Source of the DNA: Pedobacter cryoconitis
GTDB taxonomy: Bacteria > Bacteroidota > Bacteroidia > Sphingobacteriales > Sphingobacteriaceae
Assembly: GCF_014200595.1 (NCBI RefSeq)
Contig: NZ_JACHCG010000001.1
Span: 1,798,001-1,862,000 of the forward strand
Direction: 5' to 3'
DNA length: 64,000 nt
The notes below the pieces were generated by a model, which saw nothing but the letters and a program-made list of their open reading frames with translations, did no database searches and had not been told where the DNA came from. The translations under genes were made by a program, and so were the position numbers. The stretch's first letter is position 1; the number at the start of each line of letters is the position of its first letter. Positions 22,586 through 26,852 of the stretch are shown one piece after another.

Positions 22586-22635
22586 GTTTTTTCATCTTTA
22601 TTTAAATAGTATACTAGTTTAGTAGATTATGTTTT

Positions 22636-22643
22636 TATATTTG
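22636..22643 (+). promoter_or_regulatory. putative -7 promoter element upstream of the encapsulin gene
   Basis: TATATTTG is an exact match to the Bacteroidota -7 consensus TAnnTTTG. No good TTTG box is found at the usual spacing upstream. If used, the transcript would have a leader of about 140 nt before the shell gene at 22793. Confidence 0.35.
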
Positions 22644-22792
22644 GTAACAGGATGTATCTATTCATCCTGTTAATGCTCTTTTCCTTTCTGGAATCTGTTT
22701 TTGCTGACTGTTGACTTTCTTCTGTGATTAGAAAAAGAAACAATCAATAGCCCTTTGAAATGAAAAATCTAAAACCGTTAATTATATAAAAC

Positions 22793-23719
22793 ATGGCAGG
22801 ACAAGTTAAAAACACACAACAAACAGCATTAAATGATGTTGCAGCGAGGCCACTAGCGATTGCAACCCGTACCGTACCCCAGGCACCCTGGATTACACCA
22901 AGATGGTTACCACACTTGCTGAGCTGGAATCCTGTCGAATCAGGTATTTACAGAGTCAACAAGGTGAAAGAAGGAGAGTCTGTAGATGTGGATTGCTCCA
23001 ACAGAGATGAGCGCGTATTGCCTAATACCTTTGTTGATTATGTAGAACAACCTCGTGAATATCTTTTAAGTGCTGTAAATACGGTACTTGACGTACATAC
23101 AAGGGTTTCTGATTTGTACAGCAAGCCTTATAACCAGATCAGCGAACAGTTAAGGTTAACTATCGAAGCGATTAAAGAAAGACAGGAAAGTGAGCTGATC
23201 AATAACAAAGAATACGGTCTGCTGCATAGTATTGTTCCTTCGCAGCGCATTGTTACCCGCAGTGGTGCACCAACTCCGGACGATCTGGATGAGCTGATTA
23301 CCAAAGTATGGAAAGAACCAGGGTTTTTCTTGCTTCATCCGCTTGCTATTGCTGCATTTGGCCGTGAATGTACCCGCAGAGGGGTTCCACCACCCACAGT
23401 TTCTTTATTTGGCTCACAATTTATTACCTGGAGAGGGATTCCGCTTATCCCTTCTGATAAAGTGCCGATTGAAAACAACAAAACGAAAATCTTGCTGATC
23501 CGTACAGGAGAAAGCCGTCAGGGGGTAGTTGGACTTTACCAGCCAGATCTGCCGGGAGAACAATCACCAGGATTATCAGTACGTTTTATGGGGATCAATG
23601 AAAAAGCAATTGCCTCATACCTGGTTTCTTTATACTGCTCATTAGCAGTTTTAGTAGATGATGCGATCGCAGTACTGGAAGAAGTGGAAATCAATAAATA
23701 TCACGAATACAAATATTAA
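22793..23719 (+). CDS. Family 2A encapsulin shell protein (SrpI-like)
   Basis: The 308 residues match the HK97-fold Family 2A encapsulin, known from SrpI of Synechococcus, rather than a phage capsid. Recognised segments include LATATRTVPQAPWITPRWLPHLL-like (residues 20-41 here: RPLAIATRTVPQAPWITPRW), ESGIYRVNKVKEG, REYLLSAVNTVLDVHTRVSDLYS, EYGLLHSIVPSQRI, FFLLHPLAIAAFGRECTRRG and the C-terminal AIASYLVSLYCSLAVLVDDAIAVLEEVEI. The N-terminal arm is typical of Family 2. Such shells self-assemble into a nanocompartment that encloses a cysteine desulfurase. The cargo gene follows after 3 bp. No cyclic-nucleotide-binding insertion (Family 2B) is present. No other capsid or phage gene is near. Confidence 0.93.
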   Translation: MAGQVKNTQQTALNDVAARPLAIATRTVPQAPWITPRWLPHLLSWNPVESGIYRVNKVKEGESVDVDCSNRDERVLPNTFVDYVEQPREYLLSAVNTVLDVHTRVSDLYSKPYNQISEQLRLTIEAIKERQESELINNKEYGLLHSIVPSQRIVTRSGAPTPDDLDELITKVWKEPGFFLLHPLAIAAFGRECTRRGVPPPTVSLFGSQFITWRGIPLIPSDKVPIENNKTKILLIRTGESRQGVVGLYQPDLPGEQSPGLSVRFMGINEKAIASYLVSLYCSLAVLVDDAIAVLEEVEINKYHEYKY

Positions 23720-23722
23720 GCT

Positions 23723-25525
23723 ATGAGTAATGCAATTAATGATCCGCAGGGATTACCAGATGTGCATGCCTTAGAAAAGCTGGCGAATGCGTATTTTTCT
23801 GCATTACCGGGAAACTACAATGCAGCAGATGTGCCTTCAGCAGAGCTTCTTCCGCATAGCAATAATCAGATTCAGGAAAACAGCACATTTACCCATTCGC
23901 CTTCGGCTATTTACCAGGGGAATGCAATTGATCTTTCTGATCCGCAAACCAGTCTGCCGGATTCTAACGGATTAGGACTTGGACATGTTCCAAAGTCTAC
24001 CGCCGGGAGTGGGGGGCCTTCAGGGAATTTTAATACCGCTAAACAGGCTAACAATCCATTTAATATCAGTTCACTGTTACCTTTTGAAGCAGATCAGCCC
24101 TATGAAAAGGAATTGCAGAAAGTATTGGCATCGGTTAGTTCCTATAGTCCTTCATCACAATTACCTTTTAATCCTTCCGCTATTTTAAGTGAGAACTCTT
24201 ATTATTTTTCTTCAGGAATTCAATTTGTCACCTCAGCTGATACCCAGAATAGCGGACGTTATGGAAATGGGGTGATTACCGGAAAATCTCAGCCCTCATT
24301 TAATGTTAATCTCATCAGAAATGATTTTCCCATTCTTTCAGAACAGGTGAATGGTAAACCACTGATCTGGCTTGATAACGCGGCTACTACACAAAAACCA
24401 CAGCAGGTCATTGACCGGCTGAACTATTTTTACGCCCACGAAAACTCTAACATTCATCGTGCAGCGCATGAACTTGCTGCCCGTTCGACGGATGCCTATG
24501 AAGGGGCAAGACAAAAAGTACAGCGCTTTATCAATGCGCGTTCTCCAAATGAGATTGTATTTGTCCGCGGAACAACCGAAGCGATTAACCTGGTTGCCAA
24601 TAGCTGGGGAGATGAATATTTGCAGCAAGGCGATGAAATTATCCTGACGCACCTGGAGCATCATGCGAATATTGTTCCATGGCAGTTACTGGCTAAAAAG
24701 AAAGGATTAAAGATCAGGGTTATCCCGGTAGATGATGATGGGCAGCTATTGCTGGATGAATATGCAAAACTACTTAATCCAAGGACGAAACTGGTTTCCT
24801 TTACTTTGGTTTCCAATGCATTGGGGACAATAACCCCGGCAAAACAGATTGTAGCTATGGCACATGCTGCCGGAGCTAAAGTGCTTGCAGATGGAGCGCA
24901 GTCAGTTTCTCATATCCGTACAGATGTTCAGGCGCTGGATGCCGACTGGTTTGTATTTTCAGGACATAAAGTTTTTGGCCCTACCGGTATTGGGATCTTG
25001 TATGGGAAAGAAGATTTACTGAATAGTACCCAACCTTATCAGGGTGGGGGCAATATGATTCAGGATGTCACTTTTGAACATACTCAATTTCACCAGGCTC
25101 CTGCACGTTTTGAAGCCGGGACAGGGAATATTGCGGATGCTGTAGGTTTAGGCGCTGCTATTGACTATGTACAAAAAATTGGTATTGACAATATTTATCA
25201 ATATGAACATTACCTGCTGGACTATGCCAGTCACAAACTAGCACAAATCCCGGGACTAAGACCGATTGGAACGGCACCGGATAAAACGAGTGTATTGTCA
25301 TTTGTGCTCGATGGCTTTACCACTGCCGAAGTTGGCGAAGCATTAAGCCGTGAAGGTATTGCTGTTCGTTCTGGTCACCATTGTGCACAACCTATTTTGA
25401 GAAGATTTGGACTGGAAGCTACAGTCAGACCTTCCTTAGCATTTTACAATACCTGTGCTGAGGTCGATACCTTAGTGGCAGTAGTTGGCGGATTAAAATC
25501 TGCTAAACAAATCTACTTTCATTAA
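23723..25525 (+). CDS. encapsulated cysteine desulfurase with N-terminal cargo-loading domain
   Basis: A 600-residue PLP enzyme in two parts. Residues 1 to about 195 are low-complexity, rich in S, N, P and Q, and presumably disordered; they match the cargo-loading extension of Family 2A encapsulin cargo. Residues 196-600 are a SufS-type desulfurase: LIWLDNAATTQKP, NIHRAAHELAARST, LEHHANIVPWQ, ADGAQSVSHI, the PLP lysine K416 (FSGHKVFGPTGIG) and the catalytic C554 (RSGHHCAQPILRR). It would take sulfur from cysteine inside the shell, where homologues store elemental sulfur. A SxLP motif recurs at 26-29, 117-120 and 145-148 in the extension. It is co-transcribed with the shell gene. Confidence 0.93.
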   Translation: MSNAINDPQGLPDVHALEKLANAYFSALPGNYNAADVPSAELLPHSNNQIQENSTFTHSPSAIYQGNAIDLSDPQTSLPDSNGLGLGHVPKSTAGSGGPSGNFNTAKQANNPFNISSLLPFEADQPYEKELQKVLASVSSYSPSSQLPFNPSAILSENSYYFSSGIQFVTSADTQNSGRYGNGVITGKSQPSFNVNLIRNDFPILSEQVNGKPLIWLDNAATTQKPQQVIDRLNYFYAHENSNIHRAAHELAARSTDAYEGARQKVQRFINARSPNEIVFVRGTTEAINLVANSWGDEYLQQGDEIILTHLEHHANIVPWQLLAKKKGLKIRVIPVDDDGQLLLDEYAKLLNPRTKLVSFTLVSNALGTITPAKQIVAMAHAAGAKVLADGAQSVSHIRTDVQALDADWFVFSGHKVFGPTGIGILYGKEDLLNSTQPYQGGGNMIQDVTFEHTQFHQAPARFEAGTGNIADAVGLGAAIDYVQKIGIDNIYQYEHYLLDYASHKLAQIPGLRPIGTAPDKTSVLSFVLDGFTTAEVGEALSREGIAVRSGHHCAQPILRRFGLEATVRPSLAFYNTCAEVDTLVAVVGGLKSAKQIYFH

Positions 25526-25540
25526 TTTAATGTTTAACTT

Positions 25541-25573
25541 AAAAACCTTTTTAGCATGTCTAAGAAGGTTTTT
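25541..25573 (+). terminator. Rho-independent terminator of the encapsulin operon
   Basis: The arms AAAAACCTTTTTAG (25541-25554) and CTAAGAAGGTTTTT (25560-25573) pair with one mismatch and a 5-nt loop, ending in a T-run. It closes the two-gene encapsulin transcript before the next gene at 25635. Confidence 0.75.
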
Positions 25574-25634: not shown

Positions 25635-26852
25635 ATGAGATCCAAGTATGATTTTTTTTATTTAGCTGCGTTTTTATCATTAGTATCCTGTAAAAATAAC
25701 GGTGATCAACAGGGATCAAAAGAGCAAGGTCGGCAGGTGAAAAAAGTGTCTTTGCTTCAAATGAAATCTTTTCCTGAAAACGGAGCCGCTATGTGCAGGC
25801 CAACAGGATTTAAGAGTGCAGACAGTGTATTATTTATGCAGGGTGGCGGAAAGGAATTTCGGCAAACAGTTTTTCATAGGCCAGTTTCCGGAATCAAAAT
25901 ACAACCAGGAATGCAGTTTATTAACGGGGGTGAATTTAGTATGGGAGGGGTAAATCCTGTCGGAATGGACGGAGGCGGTCATGAAGTAATGAATGATGCC
26001 AGGCCAGTTCACCGGGTGATTGTCAACGCTTTTTATATGGACACAGCGCCAGTAACTAATCAGCAATTCGCAGAATTTGTGAGAGCAACTGGTTATATTA
26101 CTGTGGCGGAGCAAAAACCAACAAGAGAAGAATTTCCTAATGTTCCACCAGAAAATCTGGTAGCGGGCTCCCTTGTATTTACTCCGCCCAAAGCGTCCGT
26201 CTCTTTAAATAATTATTTACAGTGGTGGTCATATTTGAAAGGTGCAGATTGGAGACATCCTGAAGGTGGAAATAGTAATATAAATGGCAAAGCTAATTAT
26301 CCCGTAGTTCAGGTGTGTTGGGAAGATGCCGCTGCTTATGCTAAATGGGCGGGCAAAAGGCTACCTACAGAAGCAGAGTGGGAATATGCTGCAAGGGGTG
26401 GTCTTTCTGGAGAACTTTATGCCTGGGGAAATGAGCTGAAACCTAAAGGCAAATGGATGGCTAATATATTTGAAGGAGAGTTTCCTGATAAGGATACTGC
26501 TGCTGATGGTTATGCAGGTATAGCTCCCGTTAAAAGCTTCCCTTCCAATGGTTACGGGTTGTATGATATGGCTGGAAATGTCTGGGAATGGTGTAATGAT
26601 TGGTATAGGGCTGATTACTACATTTCTTTATCTGATCATAGGGCTACTGTAAACCCTTTGGGCCCTGCTACTTCTTATGATCCTGACGAACCTCAGGCAA
26701 AAAAGAAAGTACAACGCGGGGGATCATTCTTATGTACAGAACAGTATTGCACACGTTATATGGTAGGGACAAGAGGAAAAGGAGATTACAGGTCTGCTTC
26801 CAATCATATCGGTTTTAGATGTGTGAAGGATGTAAAAGCAAATAGAATTTAA
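25635..26852 (+). CDS. formylglycine-generating-enzyme-like lipoprotein (SUMF1/EgtB fold)
   Basis: The 405-residue protein has a lipoprotein signal ending LVSC (C19), then an FGE-sulfatase domain (about 88-398) with QFINGGEFSMGG, NAFYMDTAPVTNQQFAEFV, KRLPTEAEWEYAARGG and GNVWEWCNDWY. The two copper-binding redox cysteines of true formylglycine-generating enzymes are kept as C367 and C372 in GGSFLCTEQYCTRY, followed by SASNHIGFRC. This argues for real FGE-type chemistry rather than a non-catalytic SUMF1 relative. It would be anchored on the periplasmic side. No sulfatase gene is in the window. Terminators on both sides mark it as a single-gene unit. Confidence 0.87.
   Translation: MRSKYDFFYLAAFLSLVSCKNNGDQQGSKEQGRQVKKVSLLQMKSFPENGAAMCRPTGFKSADSVLFMQGGGKEFRQTVFHRPVSGIKIQPGMQFINGGEFSMGGVNPVGMDGGGHEVMNDARPVHRVIVNAFYMDTAPVTNQQFAEFVRATGYITVAEQKPTREEFPNVPPENLVAGSLVFTPPKASVSLNNYLQWWSYLKGADWRHPEGGNSNINGKANYPVVQVCWEDAAAYAKWAGKRLPTEAEWEYAARGGLSGELYAWGNELKPKGKWMANIFEGEFPDKDTAADGYAGIAPVKSFPSNGYGLYDMAGNVWEWCNDWYRADYYISLSDHRATVNPLGPATSYDPDEPQAKKKVQRGGSFLCTEQYCTRYMVGTRGKGDYRSASNHIGFRCVKDVKANRI

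Follow-up and report, generated by a model that had tools for sequence, protein, structure and literature searches.

A Family 2A encapsulin operon with a cargo cysteine desulfurase in Pedobacter cryoconitis

In the present study, a 64,000-nucleotide stretch of the Pedobacter cryoconitis genome (the window, throughout) was found to carry two adjoining genes which, judged from their sequences, form an ordinary Pedobacter operon for a Family 2A encapsulin, an assignment that is well supported. The identity of the genes, the intact catalytic and pore residues and the operon layout are direct observations, and we put the probability of the Family 2A identity together with the desulfurase chemistry proposed below at about 0.85. 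The locus is one more member of a known and widespread class: a passage of Giessen 2021 (PMC8346489) counts 111 desulfurase operons of Family 2A in Bacteroidetes, and the presence of the family in Bacteroidota is therefore not new. Three features might be new observations, namely a third motif in the N-terminus of the cargo (M3), a palindrome at the promoter and the remnant of a gene for a DUF4395 membrane protein.

The shell gene and its cargo desulfurase

The shell gene (22793..23719, + strand) encodes a protein of 308 aa and the desulfurase gene (23723..25525, + strand) one of 600 aa. The list of open reading frames bears out the first-pass annotation, which had placed both frames there, 3 bp from stop to start; the two genes have the layout of an operon. 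The shell protein scored 527.7 bits over residues 13-306 against the curated Family 2A shell equivalog NCBIfam NF041162 (cut-off 380) and 363.7 bits against the SrpI-like model Pfam PF19307. The Family 2B model was also above its own cut-off (431.1 versus 400), its best stretch covering residues 62-301 only, and the protein is without the cNMP-binding insertion of Family 2B. The best match among solved structures was SrpI 6x8m (514.9 bits, gapless alignment), with 73.1% identity to SrpI of Synechococcus elongatus over the full length. The SrpI-like encapsulin identity given at first is thus confirmed by both the curated model and the SrpI match, the latter also assigning the HK97 fold to the protein; the fold assignment is from sequence only, and the AlphaFold model of the shell, built with 22 close relatives, had a mean pLDDT of 45.8 and was not used. 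Self-assembly of this protein into a T=1 shell is predicted by analogy with SrpI. According to parts of Nichols 2021 (PMC8049743), R192, G194, P196 and R304 of SrpI belong to the five-fold pore, and F262 and Y273 lie near cargo density. R192, G194, P196, F262 and Y273 correspond to R195, G197, P199, F265 and Y276 in the window shell, and R304 is replaced by K307; in this alignment, G197-V-P199 (23381..23389, + strand) is the counterpart of the pore residues G194 and P196. The genome has one copy of the shell gene.

The second gene had been named an encapsulin cargo cysteine desulfurase, and its product passed the curated model for Family 2A cargo desulfurases, NCBIfam NF041166, with 885.7 bits (cut-off 800). 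It has a SufS-like, PLP-type domain with K416 in SGHK (24968..24970, + strand) and C554 in RSGHHC (25382..25384, + strand); both residues, which had been called intact, are invariant in 25 aligned cargo proteins, that of the window included. From the SufS family, we take K416 to be the PLP-binding lysine and C554 to be the persulfide cysteine. The catalytic-domain match starts at about residue 192-198, and the N-terminal ~195 residues (23723..24307, + strand) are predicted to be a disordered cargo-loading region. The AlphaFold model of the desulfurase (mean pLDDT 60.0), used for the disorder profile only, gave block means of 26-54 across residues 1-190, consistent with the disordered N-terminus of this length proposed earlier. 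Parts of Nichols 2021 (PMC8049743) report that the N-terminus is needed for cargo loading in S. elongatus and name two N-terminal cargo motifs, LARLANEFFS and AASPYYFLDG. Both have matches in the window cargo, as motif M1 (LEKLANAYFS, residues 17-26, 23771..23800, + strand, a predicted helix) and motif M2 (SENSYYFSSG, residues 156-165, 24188..24217, + strand). M1 was observed in 77 and M2 in 79 of 80 distinct desulfurase N-termini from related loci, L072, which has no catalytic landmark, being left out of the 81 available. With a long, predicted-disordered N-terminus carrying both types of motif and a gene adjoining that of the shell, the window desulfurase would, by homology, be loaded into the shell through its N-terminus.

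The first-pass annotation had the operon closed by a terminator. An A/T-rich hairpin at 25541..25573 (+ strand) is likely, if weakly supported, to be this terminator: an 81-nt stretch containing it folds to -16.9 kcal/mol (folding without a shuffle control). The consensus terminator scan reported nothing at this place. Scans of the window for tRNA genes and for Rfam families gave no matches.

Neighbouring genes and distribution

For comparison, we used 80 related loci, the best 80 of at least 448 relatives and thus close relatives only, with at most 6 kb on each side of the shell gene. Within ~10 kb on either side of the window pair, no match to serine acetyltransferase (SAT), cysteine synthase or rhodanese was found, as had been stated for SAT and rhodanese. 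SAT was present in the available stretch of 40 of the 80 loci and in 35 of the 70 with enough flank (29/64 in Bacteroidota and 6/6 in Proteobacteria), with no match in the 13-row Pedobacter/Olivibacter clade that includes the window. Rhodanese was found in two of the 80 loci (L049 and L052) and SufE in none, in phmmer searches at 1e-6, with rhodanese queries from this genome, S. elongatus and Variovorax, by which short or divergent proteins could be missed. The SAT and rhodanese neighbours that are enriched, and not obligatory, in Family 2A were not matched at the window, and their lack is common in the Bacteroidota loci compared here rather than special. Cysteine had been expected to be supplied from elsewhere, in agreement with the unlinked genes of this genome: an SAT gene beside a cysteine synthase gene at 803.7 kb of contig C1 (the SAT shares 47% identity with that of L037, a Dyadobacter locus), a SufS gene next to SufE- and SufD-like genes at 3068 kb of C1 (the SufS shares 52% identity with the domain of the cargo), and seven rhodanese stretches in six proteins; SufE, SufD and cysteine synthase were named by eye.

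Close relatives carry a further gene at the operon. In L003 and L135, an intact gene for a 151/152-aa protein, assigned to the DUF4395 family via a homologue in L010, lies between promoter and shell gene; among the 80 loci, such a gene adjoins the shell gene in L003 (5518-5973), L010 (5457-5933) and L076, and it does so in L135. The promoter block of the window is 91% identical to that of L003 (22589-22643) and 94% identical to that of L135 (22594-22643). In L003 and L135, the counterpart of the leader at 22655..22792 (+ strand) is the 3' end of the DUF4395 gene with its own leader (alignment at 68-75%); the stretch between is missing in the window, and no DUF4395 gene was found elsewhere in the genome. 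Only a 3' remnant of the DUF4395 gene is therefore left in the window leader; a function for the protein is one that we infer. The papers naming DUF4395 that a literature search returned have titles on other subjects. If the observation holds, a partner of this family would point to some connection with the membrane.

Downstream, outside the operon, lies a gene for a formylglycine-generating enzyme (FGE; 25635..26852, + strand), a sulfatase maturase that appeared lipoprotein-like by eye. Both cysteines of its GGSFLCxxxYC stretch align to solved enzymes. The FGE gene adjoins the pair in the window, L131, L132 and L135, which belong to one common synteny block, so this adjacency represents one event and not four. 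FGE-like matches were found in 5/80 loci and sulfatases in 6/80, and all sulfatase matches of this genome lie outside the window. In a Mucilaginibacter locus (L049, 2-3526), genes for a sulfatase, a rhodanese and FGE are located upstream of the shell gene; this locus proves nothing, and a functional link between FGE and the operon may be kept alive by it. An O-acetylhomoserine sulfhydrylase-like protein, named by eye, adjoins the encapsulin pair in L071, L074 and L075. The G+C content is 0.436-0.438 for the pair and 0.389 for the window; since the FGE gene is at 0.424 and the upstream gene at 0.350, composition says little.

The nearest named genome among the listed relatives is that of Pedobacter cryoconitis DSM 14825, whose shell protein is 100% identical (L002). 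The shell gene was detected in 12 of 145 genomes of the genus (11 of the 132 of good quality), and within the genus the pair occupies several unrelated neighbourhoods, suggesting movement of the pair. In a tree that was used for the position of the window only, the window falls in the 13-row Pedobacter/Olivibacter clade with an SH-aLRT of 100; the SAT label of this tree is wrong for L034, which has an SAT match, and uninformative for the truncated L032 and L049 and for the short loci L086-L092. The S. elongatus PCC 7942 SrpI/CyD system resembles the window pair in its shell, in the pore and cargo-site residues save R304/K307, and in a SufS-like cargo with a disordered N-terminus carrying M1 and M2, whereas its locus has cysK, SAT and rhodanese, which the window locus lacks, and its cargo scored -1.8 bits for M3, which the window cargo has. 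The other Family 2A loci of Bacteroidota (those in a passage of Giessen 2021, PMC8346489, and most of L002-L081) have the same two genes and the same motifs, M3 included, but differ from the Pedobacter/Olivibacter clade in their frequent SAT neighbours.

Of 395 Bacteroidota genomes drawn as a sample, 62 matched the shell model, 57 of them above its cut-off, and seven of the 62 (this genome included) spanned the whole model. The remaining 55 all belong to family code f18 and matched mostly in two pieces, as Family 2B would. Loci of this Family 2B-like group (L093-L115) share with the window the HK97 core and, where readable, a downstream desulfurase with a long N-terminus (in 21/23, the shell has a desulfurase match next to it), but differ in their two-piece shell matches and, as described below, in M3. 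In a plasmid collection, 248 records matched the shell protein, 156 of them from Escherichia; 225 of the 248 were below 60% identity, and only 29 covered at least 80% of the shell protein.

Proposed function and rival explanations

Herein, we propose that the shell protein would assemble into a small icosahedral shell, into which short motifs in the disordered N-terminus would pull the desulfurase. Free cysteine would pass the five-fold pore and form a Schiff base with PLP at K416, and C554 would take the sulfur as a persulfide, with release of alanine. The sulfur would most likely be stored in the lumen as sulfane or elemental sulfur, to be later withdrawn by thiols or acceptor proteins encoded elsewhere. 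Storage rather than channelling is the least certain part of this proposal, and we consider it fairly probable. Benisch and colleagues reportedly described sulfur storage in 2024. Assembly, loading and chemistry are proposed here by homology, as parts of Nichols 2021 (PMC8049743) report that the S. elongatus pair assembles, loads and acts on cysteine, and the working sulfur-handling nanocompartment envisaged in the first-pass annotation would have the same ground. With reference to Benisch 2024 and Nichols 2021, a passage of a 2025 paper (PMC12407261) calls desulfurases of this kind "involved in sulfur storage". Knockouts of the S. elongatus pair showed no growth defect according to a part of Nichols 2021 (PMC8049743); this and the lack of SAT, cysteine synthase and rhodanese genes linked to the pair speak against the proposal.

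The compartment might instead act as a channel, in which the desulfurase is confined so that only selected acceptors receive sulfur, such as those of Fe-S or cofactor synthesis. A passage of Giessen 2021 (PMC8346489) proposes this for operons with rhodanese, and the separate SufS- and SufE-like genes of the genome would mean that the general Fe-S pathway need not depend on the encapsulated enzyme; however, no dedicated acceptor gene was matched at the window or at nearly all of the 80 loci in the phmmer searches for rhodanese and SufE described above, and we regard a channel as rather unlikely. A decaying pair, which has lost its SAT and DUF4395 partners in this lineage and may no longer function, would fit the DUF4395 remnant, the lack of another DUF4395 gene in the genome and the presence of the shell in only 12/145 genomes of the genus. 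Both frames are open, though, the catalytic, pore and motif residues are kept, the promoter block is conserved in L003 and L135, and the shell protein is identical to that of L002, all of which makes decay improbable.

The shell gene could also be the remnant of a prophage capsid lying beside the desulfurase gene by chance, given the HK97-fold ancestry of encapsulins and a match to PHROG 212, a major head protein and the best phage family. That match reached 24.1 bits, hundreds of bits below the 527.7 of the encapsulin model, and a placement with phage capsids, named in the first-pass annotation as the outcome that would overturn its reading, is not what the profile search returned. Of the 80 related loci, 79 have a match to the desulfurase downstream, and the remaining one, L049, has a partial match and runs off its contig; a scan of viral contigs, which reaches close relatives only, confirmed no relative. 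A prophage origin was rejected on the score gap and the conserved pairing of shell and desulfurase, and we leave it almost no probability.

Candidate features of the Bacteroidota loci

We also consider a tentative hypothesis, to which we give well below even odds: the Bacteroidota Family 2A operons could be a distinct sub-type, with a docking motif M3 of variable copy number that adds shell-binding valency, a palindromic operator dedicated to their control, which thiol-related genes have as well, and, in some, a DUF4395 membrane protein with a conserved FCAGC motif, which would tie the compartment to the membrane or transport sulfur and was lost in the window strain.

M3 (approximately DLxDPQTSLPDPHFxGxGxxPxSVAGSGxSPS) was spotted by eye and modelled as an HMM from 24 units of 22 loci, the window excluded. 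The window cargo has one copy at residues 70-97 (23930..24013, + strand) with 30.2 bits. At a threshold of at least 8 bits, M3 was found in 70 of 71 Bacteroidota N-termini of the related loci, the exception being L134, and in 48 of the 49 from which no seed unit was taken; it was found in 0/9 Proteobacteria, 0/3 named outsiders and 0/19 readable N-termini of the Family 2B-like loci (23 tried), and the best of 83 shuffled sequences reached 3.9 bits. Wider sets were formed from the listed best 120 of 8000 proteins scored per query plus 36 found by the N-terminus, with P0228, which has no landmark, left out. With the window cargo as query, 128 desulfurases were obtained, and 127 of them have one to seven copies (exception P0171); this set is biased, as the query itself has M3 and the set overlaps the seed genera, and most proteins are without taxonomy. 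Among desulfurases found with the proteobacterial Herbaspirillum cargo, 5/118 had M3, none of the five carrying a taxon name; shuffled controls gave 0/128 and 0/118. Where a source was named, 14/14 Bacteroidota proteins were positive and 0/21 from Pseudomonadota, 19 of the latter with scores given and two (P0069 and P0138) simply not among the five positives. L134 and P0171 indicate that M3 is not indispensable, and its spread could be explained by common descent within the phylum. A docking role is a guess from its position and repetition; bound cargo could not be resolved in the SrpI structure, according to a part of Nichols 2021 (PMC8049743). If the observation holds, a motif of one to seven copies would allow binding valency to be tested directly, by counting. 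The desulfurase domain is present in each of the 36 proteins retrieved by the N-terminus alone; the N-terminus was thus seen with no other class of cargo. A literature text search for the letters SVAGSG, a weak test, found no paper. One of the five positives, P0124, reads TGLGTSPSAAQ and resembles, at the level of the eye, the GPTGLGT(SAAR) motif of Family 2B terpene cyclases described in a passage of Giessen 2021 (PMC8346489).

Upstream of the shell gene, the palindrome ATACTA-GTT-TAGTAG (22611..22625, + strand), with one mismatch to CTACTA-N3-TAGTAG, is a candidate operator of the encapsulin operon. It precedes TATATTTG (22636..22643, + strand), which we take to be a Bacteroidota-type -7 promoter element. 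Within 900 bp upstream of the shell gene, CTACTA-N3-TAGTAG occurred with at most one mismatch in 12/88 loci (0.05 expected from shuffles) and with at most two in 17/88 (1.95 expected). In the 13-row clade that includes the window, 12 rows have it with at most two mismatches, 58 to 809 bp upstream of the shell and mostly upstream of TATATTTG or a near form, L010 being without it; the sites of the window, L002, L003 and L135 are one common site and not independent. Taken by itself, the palindrome shows no enrichment in the genome (30 places at one mismatch or none versus 53 for the reversed control) and is specific only in combination with the -7 element, which gave 11 sites in six of seven genomes and none for the reversed control. 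Four of these 11 sites precede encapsulin operons (this genome, G013, G015 and G042), three a gene for a thioredoxin-like protein (this genome, G013 and G015), one an amino-acid permease gene (G008) and three other genes, two of them SusC-like; the genes were named by eye, and the WCGPC motif of the thioredoxin-like protein was seen in the copy of this genome. The encapsulin operon was not among the strict combined matches in G008, G016 and G017. An inverted repeat at 22645-22672, which was the sole terminator-like match of the consensus scan (shuffles average 4.5), sits between the candidate promoter and the shell gene; its position speaks against the promoter reading, and the repeat may reflect attenuation or chance. 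If a shared operator holds, it would provide a handle on when the compartments of Bacteroidota are made.

A literature search for a regulator of the encapsulin operon gave no paper. In L053, L038, L079 and L141, the 300 bp upstream of the Rrf2 gene do not contain the palindrome, and the four Rrf2 genes of this genome have no clear site. In L074, the palindrome (two mismatches) precedes the Rrf2 gene by ~148 bp, and it lies at the matching place in L071 (three mismatches), and an Rrf2 protein may act as the regulator at the palindrome. Genes for Rrf2-type regulators are located beside the encapsulin loci L071, L074, L053 and L141.
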